From Komagataeibacter xylinus (GTDB taxonomy: Bacteria > Pseudomonadota > Alphaproteobacteria > Acetobacterales > Acetobacteraceae): DNA of 64,000 nt. Position 1 is the first letter of the stretch. The number at the start of each line of letters is the position of its first letter. Positions 4,508 through 64,000 of this stretch are shown here, in pieces. The stretch lies in contig NZ_CP041348.1 of NCBI RefSeq assembly GCF_009834365.1, positions 652,001-716,000 of the forward strand, read 5' to 3'. The position numbers and the translations under genes were made by a program. The notes under the pieces are model-generated. The model was given only the letters and a program-made list of their open reading frames with translations. It had not been told where the DNA came from and made no database searches.

Positions 4508-4840
4508 ATGGTAGAGAAGAAGAAAACATCGCGTTATTCGCCTGAGTTCCGTGAGCGCGCCGTGCGCCTTCTGGACGAACATCGATCGGATTACCCGAGC
4601 ATTTCGGCAGCCTGTCGGGAGATTGGTGGCAAGCTTGGCTGTTCGGGAGACAGCCTGCACGACTGGTGGAAGCAGGCGCGGCGAGATGTTGGTGCACAAC
4701 CGGGACCGACCACAGCCGGGACGGCACGGATCAAGGCATTGGAGCGTGAGGTTCGTGAACTGCGTCAGGCCAATGAGATCCTCAAGAAAGCTTCGGCTTA
4801 TTTTGCGCAGGCGGAGCTCGACCGCCCGTTTCGCAAATGA
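4508..4840 (+). CDS. IS3-family transposase OrfA
   Basis: Helix-turn-helix DNA-binding subunit that recognises the IS ends; 110 aa. It starts MVEKKKTSRYSPEFRERAVR, the usual charged HTH_Tnp_1 opening, with an HTH over about residues 15-55 and a leucine-heptad coiled coil near the C-terminus (LEREVRELRQANEILKKA). ATG 4508 is preferred over ATG 4499 because GGAGG at 4494-4498 is correctly spaced for it. It overlaps orfB by ATGA, with orfB in the -1 frame. This is the arrangement that yields an OrfAB fusion by programmed frameshifting in this family; the A-rich stretch before the overlap is a plausible site. Confidence 0.93.
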   Translation: MVEKKKTSRYSPEFRERAVRLLDEHRSDYPSISAACREIGGKLGCSGDSLHDWWKQARRDVGAQPGPTTAGTARIKALEREVRELRQANEILKKASAYFAQAELDRPFRK

Positions 4841-5742
4841 TCGCGTTTATTGAAGCCTGTCGTACCGATTATGGGGTCGAGCCAATCTGTCGCGTTCTGC
4901 CGATTGCCCCTTCCACGTTTTATCATCAGGCGGCCATAGCGAGAGATCCGGCCAGAGCCAGCATACGAGCACAATGTGATAGGGATCTGATGGCGCATAT
5001 CCGTCGGATCTGGCACGACAACCGTAGTGTTTATGGTGCGCGCAAGGTCTGGCACAGCCTGCAGCGTGAAGGACGGAAGGTCGCGCGCTGCACTGTCGAG
5101 CGCCTGATGCGGCAGATGGGCCTGAAGGGGGTGATCCGGGGCAGGAAGGTCATCACGACCCGTCCGGATACGGCGCGTCCCTGTCCCGATGACAGGGTCA
5201 ACCGGCAGTTCCGGGCCGAGGCTCCCAACCAGCTCCGGGTCTCGGACTTCACCTATGTCCAGACCCGGAATGGCATGGTCTATGTGGCGTTTGTCATTGA
5301 TGTGTTCGCCCGCAGGATCGTGGGCTGGAAGGTCTCGACCTCCATGACCACCCAGTTCGTGCTCGACGCCCTTGAACAGGCCATCTGGCAACGAAAGCCC
5401 TCGGGAAACAAGGCGCTGATCCATCACTCGGATCGTGGTTCACAATATCTGTCGATCCGATATACCGAACGCCTGGCGCTGGCTGGCATCGATGCCTCGG
5501 TCGGCACGGTCGGTGACAGTTACGATAATGCACTGGCGGAGACGATCAACGGTTTATACAAGGCCGAAGTTATCCATCATCTGGGGCCATGGAAATCCAT
5601 GGTGCAGGTCGAATGGGAAACACTCAGATGGGTGGACTGGTATAATAATCGACGCCTATTGGCGCCAATCGGCTACAGGCCACCCGCCGAAGCCGAACGC
5701 GCCTTCTATGCAGATCAGAGCAGACTTGATATCGCAGCCTGA
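4837..5742 (+). CDS. IS3-family transposase OrfB (DDE integrase core)
   Basis: Catalytic transposase subunit with a retroviral-type integrase fold; 301 aa. An N-terminal HTH_21-like region (VYGARKVWHSL) precedes the rve core. The catalytic triad is visible as Asp in VSDFTYV, Asp in HHSDRGSQY, and Glu in DNALAETING, with the 35-residue D-E spacing normal for IS3. The C-terminus keeps the WVDWYNNRR motif. No frameshift or stop interrupts it. It is normally translated as an OrfAB fusion, but an ATG at 4837 is present. Confidence 0.95.
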   Translation: MIAFIEACRTDYGVEPICRVLPIAPSTFYHQAAIARDPARASIRAQCDRDLMAHIRRIWHDNRSVYGARKVWHSLQREGRKVARCTVERLMRQMGLKGVIRGRKVITTRPDTARPCPDDRVNRQFRAEAPNQLRVSDFTYVQTRNGMVYVAFVIDVFARRIVGWKVSTSMTTQFVLDALEQAIWQRKPSGNKALIHHSDRGSQYLSIRYTERLALAGIDASVGTVGDSYDNALAETINGLYKAEVIHHLGPWKSMVQVEWETLRWVDWYNNRRLLAPIGYRPPAEAERAFYADQSRLDIAA

Positions 5743-57251: not shown

Positions 57252-58109
57252 ATGGCCATTCCCGTCCGTCGCACCGGCGTGCTGTGCGCCCTGCTCATGC
57301 TGGCAGGGTGCGGCTTTTCCCCGATGTACAAGACGACGGGAAGCCATATCGGCCCGGATGGCAAACCCACCACCGGCAATGTGCTGGCCGAGCTCAAGCA
57401 GGTTTATGTCGCGCGCATCAATGAGCGCTATGGCCAGTTGCTGCGCCTGGCGCTGCAGCAGGACATGGGCGGCACCGGGCCTGAAAACCCGACCCGTTAC
57501 GTGCTGCGCATCCGCACCTACCTGATGAACGAAGCCGTGGACATCCACGCCGACAACACCTCGGGCCGCACGCGCACCACCGCCTTCGCCCACTGGACGC
57601 TGGAGACAGTGGCCAATGACCCGGTCATGCTGGCAGGGGGCGATGCCTCGGTGGTGGATGGCGTAAACAACAATTACGAGCAGTATTTCGCCCAGACCCT
57701 GAACCTTGAAGGCGTGCGCGCGCGCGTGGCCAAGAACCTGGCCGAGCAGATTACGCAGGAAGTAGCCGTGTGGTTCCGCACCCATGCCAAGCCCGCTGTC
57801 AGCGGCTCGGTGCGGGGGCAGAACCAGCCGCGTTACAACGACCCCAACGGCATCATCAACCCCAACAACCAGATGCCCGCCCAGCACCCCGCCGCCGACG
57901 GCCTGCCCACCATGGCCACCGGCCGCACCGATGCCCAGCTGAACGAGGAAAACAACGGCGGCATGACCATGCCCGACGAAAACGGCCCCATGGACAACAC
58001 GCCAGACACCACCACGCAGGCCCCTGCCACTTCCAGCCGGAGCAGCACGTCGGCATCGGAGAACGATGACATGTCGGGCATCAGCATCGGGGGGAACGAA
58101 AACAAGTGA
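57252..58109 (+). CDS. lptE: LPS assembly lipoprotein LptE
   Basis: 285 aa. The signal ends in the lipobox MLAGC (residues 16-20), followed by GFSPMY, the usual LptE opening. The conserved domain of about 150 residues (LKQVYVARINERYGQLLR, YVLRIRTYL) plugs the LptD barrel at the outer membrane. Unusually long for the family because of a C-terminal tail of about 100 residues rich in Asn, Thr, Ser, Pro and Met, without predicted fold. It starts 2 bp after leuS and overlaps holA, so the three are one transcription unit. Confidence 0.88.
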   Translation: MAIPVRRTGVLCALLMLAGCGFSPMYKTTGSHIGPDGKPTTGNVLAELKQVYVARINERYGQLLRLALQQDMGGTGPENPTRYVLRIRTYLMNEAVDIHADNTSGRTRTTAFAHWTLETVANDPVMLAGGDASVVDGVNNNYEQYFAQTLNLEGVRARVAKNLAEQITQEVAVWFRTHAKPAVSGSVRGQNQPRYNDPNGIINPNNQMPAQHPAADGLPTMATGRTDAQLNEENNGGMTMPDENGPMDNTPDTTTQAPATSSRSSTSASENDDMSGISIGGNENK

Positions 58110-59125
58110 AGATCGAGGCCCGCTCCGTCAACGCGACGCTGAATGCGCCCGGCGCGCTGCGGGCCATCGTGCTGCATGGAGATGATGCCGGGCTGATCCG
58201 CGAACGGGCCACCACGGCGGCACGCGCCATCTGCCCCGACCTGAATGATCCGTTTCGCGTCGCCATACTAAGCCGTGAGGACCATGACCGGCTGGAGGAG
58301 GAAACCACCGCCCTGTCGCTGAGCGGCGGCCGGCGCGTGATCTGGCTGCGCGAGGTGGGTGATAGCGTGCTGGCTGCCCTGCAACGCTGCCTGGCGCAGG
58401 ATTCCGACACGCTGGTCATTCTTGAAGCGCCAGGCCTGGCCTCGCGCTCGAAGCTGCGCGCCTTTGCCGAAAAGGACCGCCAGTGTGGCGTGATCGGCTG
58501 CTACCCCGAGGAAGGCCGCGCGCTTGAAGGCGCAATCCGACAGATGCTGACGGGGCATGACGTGGGCATTGACCCCGATGCGCTGGGCTGGATGGTCGAA
58601 CGCGCGGGGCCGGACCGCGCCGCCACCCGTAGCGAAGTGGAAAAGCTGGCCCTGTTTGCCGGTGCTGGCGGCAGGCTGGGGCTGGAGGATGTACGCGCCT
58701 GCGTGGGCGATGCGGCTGGCGTGTCGCTGGAAGACGCAGCCTTTGCCGCCATGGCAGGCGAACGCGAGGCCGCCGATGCTGCCGCCGAGCGTGCGCTGGT
58801 AACCGATGGCAGCAGTCCGGTAGCACTGGCACGCGTGCTGCTAAGCCATATTCACCGCCTGCGCCGGGTGCGGCTGGCCATGGATGGCGGGATGGGCCGG
58901 GCGGAAGCCATGCGACAGTTGCGGCCGCCGGTGTTTTTCAAGCGCACGGACAGTTTCGGGCAGGCACTCAATGCCTGGTCGGCTGCAACACTGCTTGAGG
59001 CGGCACAGGATACGCAGGCGCTGGAACTGGCCTGCAAGCAGACCGGCAGCCCCGATATCGTGCTGGGACTGCGGCATGTGGCCCGTCTGTGCGGCCTGGC
59101 ACAGAAAGCACGCAGGCGGCGGTAG
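58106..59125 (+). CDS. holA: DNA polymerase III delta subunit
   Basis: Clamp-loader subunit that opens the beta sliding clamp. 339 aa, a normal length. IVLHGDDAGLIRERA near residue 21 is the degenerate P-loop region, VIWLREV and LVILEAPGLASRSKLRAF follow, and the C-terminal collar domain includes VFFKRTDSF. The GTG start at 58106 overlaps the lptE TGA. Order leuS-lptE-holA is conserved in alphaproteobacteria. Confidence 0.92.
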   Translation: MKIEARSVNATLNAPGALRAIVLHGDDAGLIRERATTAARAICPDLNDPFRVAILSREDHDRLEEETTALSLSGGRRVIWLREVGDSVLAALQRCLAQDSDTLVILEAPGLASRSKLRAFAEKDRQCGVIGCYPEEGRALEGAIRQMLTGHDVGIDPDALGWMVERAGPDRAATRSEVEKLALFAGAGGRLGLEDVRACVGDAAGVSLEDAAFAAMAGEREAADAAAERALVTDGSSPVALARVLLSHIHRLRRVRLAMDGGMGRAEAMRQLRPPVFFKRTDSFGQALNAWSAATLLEAAQDTQALELACKQTGSPDIVLGLRHVARLCGLAQKARRRR

Positions 59126-59179
59126 AGGAAAAATTGCCCTTGCCCGCACGCATGGGCTCGGTTAGAAAGCTGGCAGTGT

Positions 59180-59478
59180 GTCCGCGTAGCTCAGCCGGAT
59201 AGAGCACAGGATTCCTGGTTTTCAAATTGGGCGCCATGACGGGAAACCCCATGGCGGATCTGCTCAAATTCGGGGAACGCTCTGGCGAAAGCCGTGCCAA
59301 TCCCGAGCCAAGGCCAGCCTCGCTGGCAAGGTGTAGAGACTGGATGGGCAGCACCTGTAGACCGCATGCGGTCCATGGTGAAGGGACAGTCCAGACCACG
59401 AACGCCATGCTCATGGCGGCGGTGAAAGCCGAAGTGGTATGAATCCTGGGGCCGTGGGTTCGAATCCCGCCGCGGACA
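59180..59478 (+). tRNA. tRNA-Arg(CCU), split by a group I intron
   Basis: Exon 1 (59180-59216): acceptor strand GTCCGCG, D arm GCTC/GAGC, anticodon stem CAGGA, loop TTCCT with anticodon CCT at 59214-59216. Exon 2 (59442-59478): AA, stem TCCTG, variable GGGCC, T arm GTGGG-TTCGAAT-CCCGC, acceptor CGCGGAC and discriminator A. All four helices pair (one G-U in the T stem). CCA is not encoded. The break lies after U36 of the anticodon, the same place as the known tRNA-Arg(CCU) intron of Agrobacterium. Confidence 0.94.
59217..59441 (+). ncRNA. Group I self-splicing intron (IC3-like) in tRNA-Arg(CCU)
   Basis: 225 bp, no open reading frame of note, so no homing endonuclease. The 5' exon ends in U and the intron ends in G, as group I requires. 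P1 can form from CCT|GGTTT with AAATTGGG, giving the obligatory U-G pair at the 5' splice site. Conserved core pieces close to the Azoarcus tRNA intron are visible: CTCAAATTCGG, GAGCCAAGG, GGTGTAGAGACTGGA (P7 5' side) and ATGGTGAAGGGACAGTCCAG (P7 3' side). Subgroup IC3 is inferred from that likeness. Confidence 0.92.
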
Positions 59479-59815
59479 TACCCTTTTCAAGTGACACTTG
59501 AAAAAATCATAAAAAACAGCAGAAATCAGCCATTATTCATGCGGGTCTAAACAGTATGATTTCGTCCCCCGCCCGTTTGCAGGCCGGGTTTTATTGTCAT
59601 ATTAAGGCCGTGACAACATGGCCCTGACAGACGCGCAGCCCAGCCCCGCAGCAAACCATACGTCCTTTCGGATGATAGAGGGCTGACCCTTACTGCCTCT
59701 CCTGCCAGTTACTCAATTCCAGGAACTGTTTGAAAACAGTTCATTGGCAAAAGGGAAAAAAATCTGGAGGCTGCCTTTTCAAACAGCCACTCAGACCAAA
59801 CCGTGGGCAGCCTGT
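59479..59815. other. Intergenic region after the tRNA, with two palindromes
   Basis: 337 bp without a gene. TTTTCAAG (59484-59491) and CTTGAAAA (59497-59504) form a hairpin 5 bp past the tRNA, and GAACTGTTT (59723-59731) pairs exactly with AAACAGTTC (59734-59742) over a 2-base centre. Neither has a T-tract on the coding side. The terminator of the c-di-GMP genes lies at the right end. Confidence 0.5.
59756..59813 (-). terminator. Probable terminator of the c-di-GMP operon
   Basis: On the minus strand AGGCTGCC (complement of 59806-59813) pairs with GGCAGCCT (complement of 59768-59775) over 8 bp, and seven T follow (59762-59756). An alternative smaller hairpin lies inside the loop. It begins 3 bp past the stop at 59816. 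Confidence 0.6.
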
Positions 59816-62038
59816 CTACCCGGAGGGTTTCTCCCTATTTTTCATCATCGCTGGCATGAGCTTGCGCGGTTTACGAAACCACGTTTCCAGATCCGTGGGT
59901 GACATGGGCTTTGCAAACAGATAGCCCTGCAGAACATCGCAGTGCAGGCTTTCAAGCAAATCATACTGGACCTCGGTCTCCACCCCTTCGGTTACAACCG
60001 TCATGCCCAATCGGTTGCCAATACCGATCACTGCGGTTGTAACCGCCTGCGCGTTTGCATCGTGCTCCAGATTCATGATGAAGCTGCGGTCGATCTTGAT
60101 TTCGGTCAGTGGCAGCCGCGTCAGACGCGACAGGCTGGAAAAGCCGGTGCCAAAATCATCCATCGACAGGCCAACCCCCAGCTTACGAATGGCGGCAAGG
60201 ACGTTCATCGTCTCCTCGCTTTCATCCATCATGACACTTTCCGTGATTTCAACGGTCAGCCGCTCGGGCGAGAGGCCATATTTATGTAGCAGATCCGCGA
60301 TCATCGATACGAGTGAACGGTTATGGAAATGCCCAGCCGAAAGGTTGACCGAAACAACCGGGATATGCACGCCATCACGGTCCCACTGCGTGATCTGGTG
60401 GCACGCTTTCTCCAGAGACCATCGACCGATCGCCTCGATCTGCCCTGTTTCCTCGGCTACGGCAATGAAGCGGGAGGGAAAGATATTGCCAAGGGCAGGA
60501 TGGTTCCACCGCGCCAGTGCTTCCACGCCGTAAATCTCTCCTGTCCGGGCTTCGATCTGTGGCTGGTAATGCAGGTTGAGCAGTCCTTGAGAGAGGGATT
60601 CACGCAATGCACTGCCCAGCACAAGCCGGTCCTGTGCATCCTTGCTGTCGATCGAACTCACCAGGCGGTAGCTGCCACGCGCTTCTTTCTTGGCCTGGCG
60701 CATGGCCACTTCGGCATGGCTGATCAGGGATTCGCCATCGGGCCCATTTTCAGGAAATGTCGCAATACCGGTGCTGAAGGAAGCCGAGAGATGATTGCCC
60801 CCGACTTCCAACGGGCGGTGCATGGCGTCCGCCACCATCTTGATGAAGTCGACCGCCGTTTCGGCCGTGGCATTGGGAATGATGATGACAAAATCATCAC
60901 CGCCTGAACGGCTAAGAATATAGTTGCTGCGGCACAGCGTTTTCAGCCGCTCGGCAATGACCTTGAGGAATGTATCACCCTGTATGTGTCCCAGCGCATC
61001 ATTGATGTCCCGAAAGCGATCGAGATCCAGCAGCAGCACGGCAAAACGGTTGTCGCCAGGCCGGCTGATCATCGACTTGAGCACCTTATGCAGCGATGAA
61101 CGGTTCAGAAAGCCGGTCAGCGGATCATAATTGGCGAGCTGTGAGATATGCTGCCGGGCTTCATACTGCTCGATCACAACACCACAGAACGGTACCGCGC
61201 CCGATACGATCTTCTGCGGCCAGTCGGCCACCTTGTGCTGGTTGCGCGAATACAGCGCCAGAATGCCGGAAATACGCCCGTTAGGCGCCCTGATGGCCGA
61301 AGCCCAGCACTCATGCAGCCCGAGCGAGATACCGAGCGAGCGATAACTTTCCCATACAACGGAACTCGCTTCATCCAGATCATTGGCCAGGGCGGTGATA
61401 TCGGCTTCCGTGAGAATCATATTCTCCAGCGCCGTCATGAACCGCCGCGGCATGCCTGAGCCTGACAGGACCTCCAGGCGGTGCTCTGCCGTAAGTTGCA
61501 TCAACACGGCAACGGAGTTGGGCACGAATTCTTCCACACCCTGACAGACCAGATCCGCCACGTCCTGTATCAGCATGTCCCCTGACAGGGAGCGGAAAAC
61601 CTTGTTCTGCAGGTCAAGCAGCTTCCTGCGGTGGCTCTCTTCGGTGACCCCTTTCATGAAAGCCATGTAGTATCGTTTCTGATCCTTACCGATCAGTGCC
61701 GTGGAAATGGACATCTCGGCCGAGACATAATCACCGTTCTTGCTTTCAAACGTGATCTCGCGTGATGTGCCCACAATGCGGTTGATGCCTGTCTCGCGGT
61801 TATGGGCAATAAAACCATCATGATCCTGACGATAGGGCATTGGCACGAGGCATTTGACATTGCGCCCCATTACCTCAGCCTCCGTATAGCCCCAGAGTTT
61901 TTCTGCAGCTTTATTGAAAAAGACAATGCAGTTTCTGTCATCAATAATAATGACGCCATCCCGGGCCTGCTCCAGCATATCCATGCAGATATCTGAATTT
62001 ACGTTTTCGCTCGTTACAGGAAATATTTCTTTTCCCAT
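59816..62038 (-). CDS. PAS-GAF-GGDEF-EAL cyclic-di-GMP protein with heme-PAS signature
   Basis: 740 aa, no membrane segment. PAS at about 20-135, GAF at 145-295, GGDEF at 300-465 with the motif GGDDF at 379-383 (metal Glu changed to Asp, no I-site: RSNY instead of RxxD), EAL at 475-725. The EAL residues are all present: Glu of EALARW, VNLSAGHF, ITESV, DDFGTG, KIDRSF, EGVET and LQGYLF, so phosphodiesterase activity is likely. His73 (QDHDGF) and Arg93 (TSRE), 20 residues apart, match the heme ligand His200 and Arg220 of FixL, pointing to oxygen sensing as in AxPDEA1/DosP-type proteins. GAGGA precedes ATG 62038; the paralogue lies 26 bp upstream. Confidence 0.9.
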   Translation of the reverse strand: MGKEIFPVTSENVNSDICMDMLEQARDGVIIIDDRNCIVFFNKAAEKLWGYTEAEVMGRNVKCLVPMPYRQDHDGFIAHNRETGINRIVGTSREITFESKNGDYVSAEMSISTALIGKDQKRYYMAFMKGVTEESHRRKLLDLQNKVFRSLSGDMLIQDVADLVCQGVEEFVPNSVAVLMQLTAEHRLEVLSGSGMPRRFMTALENMILTEADITALANDLDEASSVVWESYRSLGISLGLHECWASAIRAPNGRISGILALYSRNQHKVADWPQKIVSGAVPFCGVVIEQYEARQHISQLANYDPLTGFLNRSSLHKVLKSMISRPGDNRFAVLLLDLDRFRDINDALGHIQGDTFLKVIAERLKTLCRSNYILSRSGGDDFVIIIPNATAETAVDFIKMVADAMHRPLEVGGNHLSASFSTGIATFPENGPDGESLISHAEVAMRQAKKEARGSYRLVSSIDSKDAQDRLVLGSALRESLSQGLLNLHYQPQIEARTGEIYGVEALARWNHPALGNIFPSRFIAVAEETGQIEAIGRWSLEKACHQITQWDRDGVHIPVVSVNLSAGHFHNRSLVSMIADLLHKYGLSPERLTVEITESVMMDESEETMNVLAAIRKLGVGLSMDDFGTGFSSLSRLTRLPLTEIKIDRSFIMNLEHDANAQAVTTAVIGIGNRLGMTVVTEGVETEVQYDLLESLHCDVLQGYLFAKPMSPTDLETWFRKPRKLMPAMMKNREKPSG

Positions 62039-62064: not shown

Positions 62065-64000
62065 TTATTGAATGGCTTGCGACACGCTCTGCCCATTTTT
62101 ACGGGAGAGAAGCCATTGCCCGAGTGCATCAGGGGGAAGCGGCTTCGAAAACAGGTAACCCTGCATGACATCGCAATGCAGCGTTTGCAGAAGCGCCTTC
62201 TGCTCGGGCGTTTCCACCCCTTCGGTCACGACCGTCATGCCCAGTCCGCTGCCAATGCCGATTACCGCCGTCGTAACGGCCTGAGCATTGGCATCATGTT
62301 CAAGGTTCATGATGAAACTGCGGTCGATCTTGATTTCGGTCAGGGGGAGGCGCGTCAGGCGCGACAGGCTGGAAAAGCCGGTGCCGAAATCATCCATGGA
62401 CAGGCCTACGCCCATGGCGCGAATAGCATGGAGCACCGCCATTGTATCGGGGTTCTCATCCATCATGACACTCTCGGTAATTTCTACCGTAAGGCGATGC
62501 GGCCCGATTGCGTATGCCTTGAGCAGTTGATCGATCGTGACGGGTAACTGACGCTTGCGGAAATGCCCGGCCGAAAGATTGACCGCAACGGTCGGAACAT
62601 GGATGCCCGCCCGCTCCCACGCAACGATCTGCTGGCAGGCCTCCTGCAGTGACCATGTGCCGATCGCCTCGATCTGGCCGGTGGCTTCGGCAACCGCAAT
62701 GAAACGGGAGGGAAAGATGTTGCCCAGATGCGGATGATGCCACCGTGCCAGGGCCTCGACACCATAGAGCTGGCCCGAACGACCATCTATCTGCGGCTGG
62801 TAATGAAGCGCCAGTCTCCCCTCTTCAAGGGTTTTGCGCAGGGCCGAACCCAGCAGCAATCGGTCCTGTGCGGCGCTGTGATCATCGGGGATGGCAATGC
62901 GGTATGTTCCGGGTGCCTCCTTCTTGACCTGCCGCATGGCAGATTCTGCCAGGCTGATCAGGGATTCGCTGTCAGATCCGGTATGGGGAAACATGCTGAT
63001 ACCGATGCCCAGCGAGGGCACGATATAGTTGTTATGCACATCAACCGGCTGCGTCAGCCCCTTGATCAGGGCCTGCGCAAAGCGGATTGCGCCTGCCTCA
63101 TCTGTCTCGGGCAGGATGATGATGAACTCATCAGCACTGGATCGGCCCAGCACGTAATGGCTGCGACTCAACCGTCGGATCCGCTCGGACACGACCTTGA
63201 GGAAAAGATCGCCATTGGCATGACCCAGCGCTTCGTTAATGTCCCGAAAGCGGTCGAGGTTCAGCATAACGACGGCAAAATGATGATCGCCCGGTTGTCC
63301 GACCTGTTTGTCCAGAAAATCATGCAGGGCCGCGCGATTGAAAAAGCCCGTGAGCGGGTCATAACGCACCAGATGCGCGATATGCTGGCGGGCCGCGTAC
63401 TGTTCGATCACGACACCGCAGAAAGGAACACACCCGTCGACTATGCGGCGTGCCCCTTCATGGCCATGGCCGGGGTTGCGCGAAAAGAGCGCCAGAATAC
63501 CACTCACCTGCCCCTGCGCAGACAGGATTGAAGACGCCCAGCAGTGATGCAGCCCCAACGAAATGCCAAGGGAATAATAATTGTTCCATACAACGGTGTC
63601 GGCATCTGAGGGGGTCTGTGCCAGCGCCGTCATATCGGCATCAGACAGCACGACATTTTCCAGTGCTGCGGCATAGCGGCGTGGAAAGCCCACACCCGAC
63701 AGGATTTCCAGTTTCCGGTTTTCATCGACAAGCATCAGCAGGGCCACGGTGTCGGGAACGAATGTCTCGATCTCACGGCACACAAGATCCGCGATTTCGC
63801 CAATCATCATGTCAGTGGACAGGGAACGGAAAACGGTATTCTGAAGATCTAGAATATTCCTGCGATGGCTTTCATCAGTAATACCCTTGATGCTGGCCAG
63901 GTAATATTTTTCGCCCTCAGGCACCATTTCCACAGCCGATATCGCCAGTTCGGCGGGAATATGGTCTCCGGCCTGATTCTGGAACATGATTTCCCGCGAT
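62065..64000 (-). CDS. PAS-GAF-GGDEF-EAL cyclic-di-GMP protein, paralogue (N-terminus beyond window)
   Basis: 645 codons are present; the frame is open through position 64000. The first visible residues SREIMFQNQAGD match the end of the PAS core of the downstream paralogue, so about 90 residues are missing. GAF, GGDEF and EAL domains follow. The cyclase motif reads SSADEF instead of GGDEF and has no RxxD I-site, so synthesis of c-di-GMP is very unlikely. The EAL motif set (EALARW, VNLSAGHF, ITESV, DDFGTG, KIDRSF, EGVET, MQGYLF) is complete, suggesting a phosphodiesterase. It is first of the two-gene operon in the window, like pdeA ahead of dgc in xylinus cdg operons. Confidence 0.9.
   Translation of the reverse strand, partial: SREIMFQNQAGDHIPAELAISAVEMVPEGEKYYLASIKGITDESHRRNILDLQNTVFRSLSTDMMIGEIADLVCREIETFVPDTVALLMLVDENRKLEILSGVGFPRRYAAALENVVLSDADMTALAQTPSDADTVVWNNYYSLGISLGLHHCWASSILSAQGQVSGILALFSRNPGHGHEGARRIVDGCVPFCGVVIEQYAARQHIAHLVRYDPLTGFFNRAALHDFLDKQVGQPGDHHFAVVMLNLDRFRDINEALGHANGDLFLKVVSERIRRLSRSHYVLGRSSADEFIIILPETDEAGAIRFAQALIKGLTQPVDVHNNYIVPSLGIGISMFPHTGSDSESLISLAESAMRQVKKEAPGTYRIAIPDDHSAAQDRLLLGSALRKTLEEGRLALHYQPQIDGRSGQLYGVEALARWHHPHLGNIFPSRFIAVAEATGQIEAIGTWSLQEACQQIVAWERAGIHVPTVAVNLSAGHFRKRQLPVTIDQLLKAYAIGPHRLTVEITESVMMDENPDTMAVLHAIRAMGVGLSMDDFGTGFSSLSRLTRLPLTEIKIDRSFIMNLEHDANAQAVTTAVIGIGSGLGMTVVTEGVETPEQKALLQTLHCDVMQGYLFSKPLPPDALGQWLLSRKNGQSVSQAIQ

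Follow-up and report, generated by a model that had tools for sequence, protein, structure and literature searches.

The gene for tRNA-Arg(CCU) in Komagataeibacter xylinus is split within its anticodon, and the question is whether an intact tRNA can still be made from it and, if so, by what means. The window analysed here is a stretch of 64,000 nucleotides (contig NZ_CP041348.1, forward-strand positions 652,001 to 716,000; all coordinates below are those of the window). As read from the sequence, the gene lies on the plus strand at 59180-59478, in two halves around a 225-nt insert placed after U36. The 5' exon (59180-59216) runs from the acceptor stem to anticodon base U36 and ends in CCU, positions 34 to 36; the 3' exon (59442-59478) begins with A37 A38 and runs to A73. 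ARAGORN, when introns are allowed, reads here a tRNA-Arg(cct) whose 225-nt intron separates ttcct from aatcc and in which all exon stems are paired, with a single G.U in the T stem. A sequence-only reading made earlier had proposed this very arrangement, a tRNA-Arg(CCU) gene interrupted after U36 by a compact group I intron ending in G, and its coordinates hold exactly. We are highly confident that the insert is a group I intron that excises itself to yield an intact tRNA, and that within the genus it is passed down together with its host gene. The basis computed here is the anatomy of the gene, a conserved and covarying fold, the finding of no second gene and the fixed position in the genus; the splicing chemistry almost certainly follows that of related introns and of group I introns in general.

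The group I nature of the insert (59217-59441) was first a matter of thresholds. An Rfam search of 501 bases with an E-value threshold matched Intron_gpI (RF00028) over the whole model, 1-253, at 45.1 bits (E 2.3e-10); the sequence-only reading had named the lack of such a match as grounds for refutation. The score falls short of the 50 bits that Rfam curates as its cut-off, which is a limit for annotation rather than a biological definition, so that default Rfam scans miss the intron, and the locus is absent from the Rfam list at the gathering threshold. Genome-wide, the window intron is the only RF00028 match at E 0.001. Within the family the cut-off is exceeded in only 23 of 397 genomes, against 117 matching at E 0.001, and with strict filters the model missed two members of the genus known to carry the intron. 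The tRNA itself fares no better: default ARAGORN reports no tRNA at this locus or elsewhere in the window. Two antisense open reading frames, of 99 (59191-59490) and 148 amino acids (58968-59414), overlie the gene, neither with a Pfam match at E 0.001. The split tRNA is easily overlooked by gene finders on default settings, as the sequence-only reading had expected of automatic tRNA finders. The homing endonuclease of mobile group I introns has no counterpart here, as had also been supposed: an insert of 225 nt is too short to hold one. A simple scan of 59060-59640 found no sigma-70-like promoter and no terminator-like site near the split tRNA. Directly 3' of the tRNA, at 59484-59504, stands a palindrome (TTTTCAAGTG/CACTTGAAAA) with no T run behind it, which we did not count as a terminator. 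Elsewhere in the window, at 4795-4911, Rfam gives the ALIL pseudoknot (RF01497, 103.1 bits), which we take to be a frameshift element of insertion sequences.

We then analysed covariation in an alignment of 25 tRNA-Arg(CCU) introns, namely that of the window and others from the same genus, the same family and one further family. Minimum-energy folding, which allows no pseudoknot, barely beats shuffled sequence (z -1.57, 12 of 200 shuffles as good), and it was dropped as a test of structure. The covariation count was used instead, because that fold breaks up the core and cannot represent the P7 pseudoknot. The structure tested has 60 pairs from P2 to P9, with P7 as a pseudoknot, and was drawn by hand on the window sequence with the relatives already viewed, so that it is not independent of the alignment. 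Across the 25 introns 97.4% of 1478 cells pair, and 41 of the 60 pairs show changes on both sides. Double-change cells number 291, where 500 shuffles average 80.5 and none reaches as many, a test that overstates covariation since the sequences are related. Sliding the partners by 1-3 columns leaves 30-42% of cells paired; these controls keep the sequences as related as they were, though a structure drawn by hand has the advantage in them.

The internal guide AUUGGG (59226-59231) is invariant in all six letters in 25 of 25 introns, its pairing being scored as three plus three, and the P2 hairpin follows directly (59232-59256; both-side changes in 5 of 7 pairs, 98.3% of cells paired). The 5' strand of P3 (59260-59265) pairs with 59346-59351, located by the covariation analysis, with both-side changes in 3 of 6 pairs and 100% of cells paired. 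In P4-P5 (59270-59306) the P4 strands (59270-59274 and 59302-59306) are invariant, and all six pairs of P5 change on both sides. P7 joins 59338-59342 to 59387-59391, the latter again placed by covariation; its five pairs are kept in 25 of 25 introns, with a double change in one and the other four invariant. The P8 hairpin (59352-59380) has double changes in 3 of 4 pairs, and in 5 of 5 in its distal part, and the P9 domain (59395-59438), a closing helix with two hairpins, one of them with a GAAA loop, in 12 of 14. Pairs without variation, namely P4, two inner pairs of P6 and four of the five in P7, are uninformative either way. The compensatory changes that run throughout the intron in 25 relatives point to selection on the fold. 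Together with the U.G pair at the 5' splice site and the terminal G (59441, invariant in 25 of 25), the P3-P9 core with its P3/P7 pseudoknot makes up the hallmarks of a group I intron, presumably of subgroup IC3, and the P1 and P7 elements picked out in the sequence-only reading stand.

This anatomy suggests how splicing would proceed. The pre-tRNA would be transcribed whole. The GGG of the guide pairs with the exon CCU to form P1, with U36.G at the cut, and its AUU pairs with AAU of the 3' exon to form P10; being complementary to CCU and to the three bases that open the 3' exon, the guide in effect reads the joined anticodon loop, CCU/AAU. A free guanosine held in P7, the guanosine site to be expected in a group I intron, would attack after U36. 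The released 5' exon would then attack after the terminal G, while AUU holds the 3' exon in place, and the product would be an intact tRNA reading AGG. The intron is in all likelihood functional, carries no endonuclease and would be passed on within the genus with its host gene.

The distribution of the intron bears on this last point. All 19 Komagataeibacter genomes examined contain the full-length split gene, with ARAGORN reading tRNA-Arg(cct) at each locus (L049-L067). Across 17 other genera of the family, one genome each, 6 have the intron in tRNA-Arg(CCU), 10 have a contiguous intron-free gene, and neither was seen in 1. A core model built jointly from Arg, Leu and Lys introns (R1) matches 187 of 397 genomes of the family and 50 of 385 of the class, introns in other tRNAs included. 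In named genomes, which include Gluconacetobacter, Gluconobacter, Acetobacter, Asaia, Bartonella, Azospirillum, Phyllobacterium and Rhodobacter, a gapped DNA pattern finds at least 118 stretches, and 114 of the 118 listed have the expected 3' boundary G/AATCC. Among the matches listed, the 79 introns compared (of 80) are 62.9-97.8% identical to the window intron by global alignment, and 12 named introns are 72.7-97.8% identical over aligned positions; the closest of the 79 is that of K. melomenusus, at 97.8%. The open reading frame upstream (58106-59125), which has no Pfam match and which we take from gene order to be holA, lies beside the intron in 18 of 18 other loci of the genus; a wider set of 78 loci, which includes repeats and Leu loci, has it in 49. 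The downstream gene is shared in only 1 of the 78. Downstream of the tRNA, the minus strand of the window carries two adjacent GGDEF-EAL proteins (59816-62038 and 62065-63987).

Such a patchy distribution could also mean that the intron was recently mobile in this lineage rather than vertically inherited, an alternative that we regard as unlikely. In its favour, the intron is sporadic in the family by the R1 count, the AU test rejects the exact rpoB topology for the intron (dlnL 143.7), and genomes of other families (G451 and G745 from f51, G681 from f70, G042 from f8) are placed among the Acetobacteraceae introns in the intron tree. Yet every one of the 19 genus members carries the intron beside a constant upstream frame, there is no endonuclease to drive it, the rpoB tree is not rejected by the SH test (p 0.085), and shuffling its labels makes it far worse (dlnL 1325). 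Patristic distances of intron and rpoB, compared in 49 of the 51 Arg-intron carriers whose intron locus was in the data set (G035 and G176 were excluded for broken rpoB), correlate with a Spearman coefficient of 0.69, a value reached in 0 of 999 permutations; among the 44 genomes of the family the coefficient, not permuted, is 0.80. The intron tree follows rpoB broadly, not exactly, and we read the descent in the family as mostly vertical, with losses and some transfers, the intron being short and its tree uncertain. The earlier proposal that the intron is either vertically inherited or immobile needs refining: it is constant in the genus and sporadic in the family, and with relatives in other families and other tRNA genes its lineage has apparently been mobile on occasion.

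If the intron no longer spliced, the gene would be a decayed one, its tRNA a pseudogene and AGG left to tRNA-Arg(UCU). This is where copy number matters, as a second, intact tRNA-Arg(CCU) had been named as grounds for discarding the intron reading. A tRNA search of the genome gave 47 loci, at which ARAGORN reads the Arg anticodons UCU, CCG and ACG and none with CCU; this list is blind to tRNAs inside masked rRNA operons, of which there is at least one (L094, with 4001 N in 6701). A DNA search with the whole gene, in which the best 12 of 29 candidates were scored, gave one match in the source genome. An anticodon arm free of the intron is absent from that genome with up to one mismatch allowed, and its exact form from all 19 genomes of the genus; the one-mismatch matches in 12 of the 19, at 14 places, were taken for chance. 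No tRNA-Arg(CCU) gene other than the split one was therefore found in this Komagataeibacter genome. The split gene may still be dispensable, since a tRNA-Arg(UCU) is present and might read AGG by wobble. That gene and the lack of a recognisable promoter are what decay would have in its favour; against it stand the fully paired tRNA stems, the full-length gene throughout the genus and the compensatory changes through the intron in 25 relatives, and we regard decay as very improbable. Least probable of all, to the point of being negligible, is that the insert is of another kind, a protein-spliced tRNA intron or a chance insertion: it does sit in the anticodon loop, as many protein-spliced archaeal introns presumably do, but its size, core and pseudoknot fit group I, and its guide is complementary to both exons and invariant in 25 of 25. 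On the self-splicing reading, the one tRNA-Arg(CCU) gene found in the genome appears to need a ribozyme, and tRNA searches on default settings pass it over.

Related introns were found in other tRNA hosts. Junctions chosen by maximum pairing alone proved false, and a tRNA check was added to the junction script, which required a U before the intron and a G at its end; the regularity of both is thus partly built in. Without this requirement ARAGORN gives the same junction for many loci and misreads others as Phe, Ser, Ile or Arg. The tRNA-checked search of 67 loci found no tRNA at 24 (L081, L138, L140, L146, L147, L185-L193, L195, L196, L200, L201, L203-L206, L209 and L210), some of which were given hosts from ARAGORN or by eye and the rest left unassigned, and a false tRNA at L144. 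Host by host, Leu(UAA) introns lie after U34 (for example L082, L085, L132, L141 and L154), and a Leu(CAA) intron after U33 (L116), with two more Leu(CAA) by ARAGORN or reading alone. Lys(UUU) introns lie after U34 (L076) or U35 (L194, L197, L198, L199 and L202), with L200 from ARAGORN or reading alone, and Lys(CUU) introns after U35 (L148, L152, L153 and L208); L083 and L145, taken together with L076, also belong to the tRNA-Lys introns. At L148 the split tRNA-Lys(CUU) is preceded, 163 nt upstream, by a contiguous Lys(CUU) anticodon arm (about 1304 and 1467, minus-strand reading), perhaps a tandem pair of which one copy was invaded. A Thr(GGU) intron after U36 passed the tRNA check (L184), four others (L188, L189, L191 and L193) come from ARAGORN or reading alone, and two Thr(CGU) introns (L195 and L196), with poor guide pairing, from ARAGORN alone. 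Two Asn(GUU) introns of 247-248 nt lie after U36 (L095 in G183, L096 in G424); at 45.9 and 50.0 bits with R1, and 78.5 and 77.6 bits with RF00028, over the Rfam cut-off, these two are distant members. No exact intact Asn anticodon arm was found in G183, and ARAGORN reads no tRNA at either of the two in G424; a tRNA-Asn whose arm differs is possible. Arg and Leu introns occur together in G019, G027 and G035 (the Leu intron of G035 by eye). Further matches to RF00028 or the core model, some near contig ends, are L099, L121, L201, L203 and L206.

The guides differ with the host, as in Arg AUUGGG and Lys AUUGGGAG, whose register is off by one base. Guides form a mean of 5.66 pairs with their own host, against 4.03 with other hosts, and the own host is at least equal to all others in only 31 of 56 cases; this test is weak, 9 of 65 rows having been dropped for want of a boundary and the boundaries of L142 and L148 looking wrong. 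In a tree built on the core, with 76 rows of which 4 have no host label, the isotype changes 9 times among the labelled rows; with all ten labels there are 17 host changes against a shuffled mean of 43, so that changes look rare, on a poorly resolved tree that rests on 140 columns. One might tentatively propose, as a reading that is quite possible, that the window intron is a twig of a largely unannotated radiation of one compact lineage, which would have moved rarely into at least eight anticodon loops, Arg(CCU), Leu(UAA), Leu(CAA), Lys(UUU), Lys(CUU), Thr(GGU), Thr(CGU) and Asn(GUU). Its cut would in each case follow a U at one of positions 33 to 36, and the move would have come about by a change in the short guide, perhaps through reverse splicing into tRNA. 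Among the best matches in the open-licence literature, none was seen to report alphaproteobacterial group I introns in tRNA genes for Lys, Thr or Asn. This spread of hosts is more interesting than the window intron itself: the wider set offers a natural series of kindred ribozyme cores, each in the service of another tRNA, and it would let guide re-targeting, host switching and loss be tested free of the confusion brought by homing endonucleases.

Taken alone, the window intron is ordinary, a further member of a known family, the Agrobacterium-type tRNA-Arg(CCU) group I introns of Alphaproteobacteria, which were reportedly described by Paquin, Heinfling and Shub in 1999. To judge from sequence, its membership is clear: it shares with them the host gene, the junction after U36 and the guide, the core is homologous, and as far as tested only sequence divergence sets it apart from the named relatives, which include Bartonella, Gluconacetobacter and Phyllobacterium. 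Over aligned positions the intron of Gluconacetobacter diazotrophicus is 84.3% and that of Bartonella choladocola 72.7% identical to it. Other systems can be likened to it by description. The tRNA-Leu(UAA) introns of cyanobacteria and plastids, also of group I, lie in the anticodon loop as well, in a different host and at a different position; the alphaproteobacterial Leu(UAA) relatives found here sit after U34. The Azoarcus tRNA-Ile(CAU) intron is, like that of the window, a compact group I intron of the anticodon loop without endonuclease, and differs in its host tRNA.

Crystal structures of the Azoarcus intron are mentioned in a review (PMC3984707), in which no word starting with Asn or Lys occurs. 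The tRNA-Leu(UAA) introns are also mentioned in passages of PMC5733544, where cyanobacterial group I introns of 22-49 nt are claimed in Arg, Gly and Lys tRNAs, in our view too short for a group I core. For Gluconacetobacter diazotrophicus, an excerpt of PMC4596401 describes one tRNA(Arg) split by a group I intron homologue; our locus from that species (L358) is a tRNA-Arg(cct) with a 227-nt intron. Among the best matches in the acetic acid bacteria literature, PMC4596401 alone contained the term group I intron, and no mention of Komagataeibacter members was found. That such introns are known in tRNA-Arg(CCU) of Alphaproteobacteria, as the sequence-only reading had stated, agrees with the named homologues at the same junction and with the Bartonella example in the available sections of PMC7717549. 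According to these sections, BbgpI, the intron in tRNA-Arg(CCU) of Bartonella bacilliformis, is one of a family whose first known member came from Agrobacterium, is flanked by CCT in a host tRNA that was unannotated, and hides a gene that tRNAscan-SE found only with the intron removed; it is spliced in vivo and in vitro (PMC7717549). The window intron, known from its sequence, shares its tRNA-Arg(CCU) host with an intron whose splicing has been experimentally proved.
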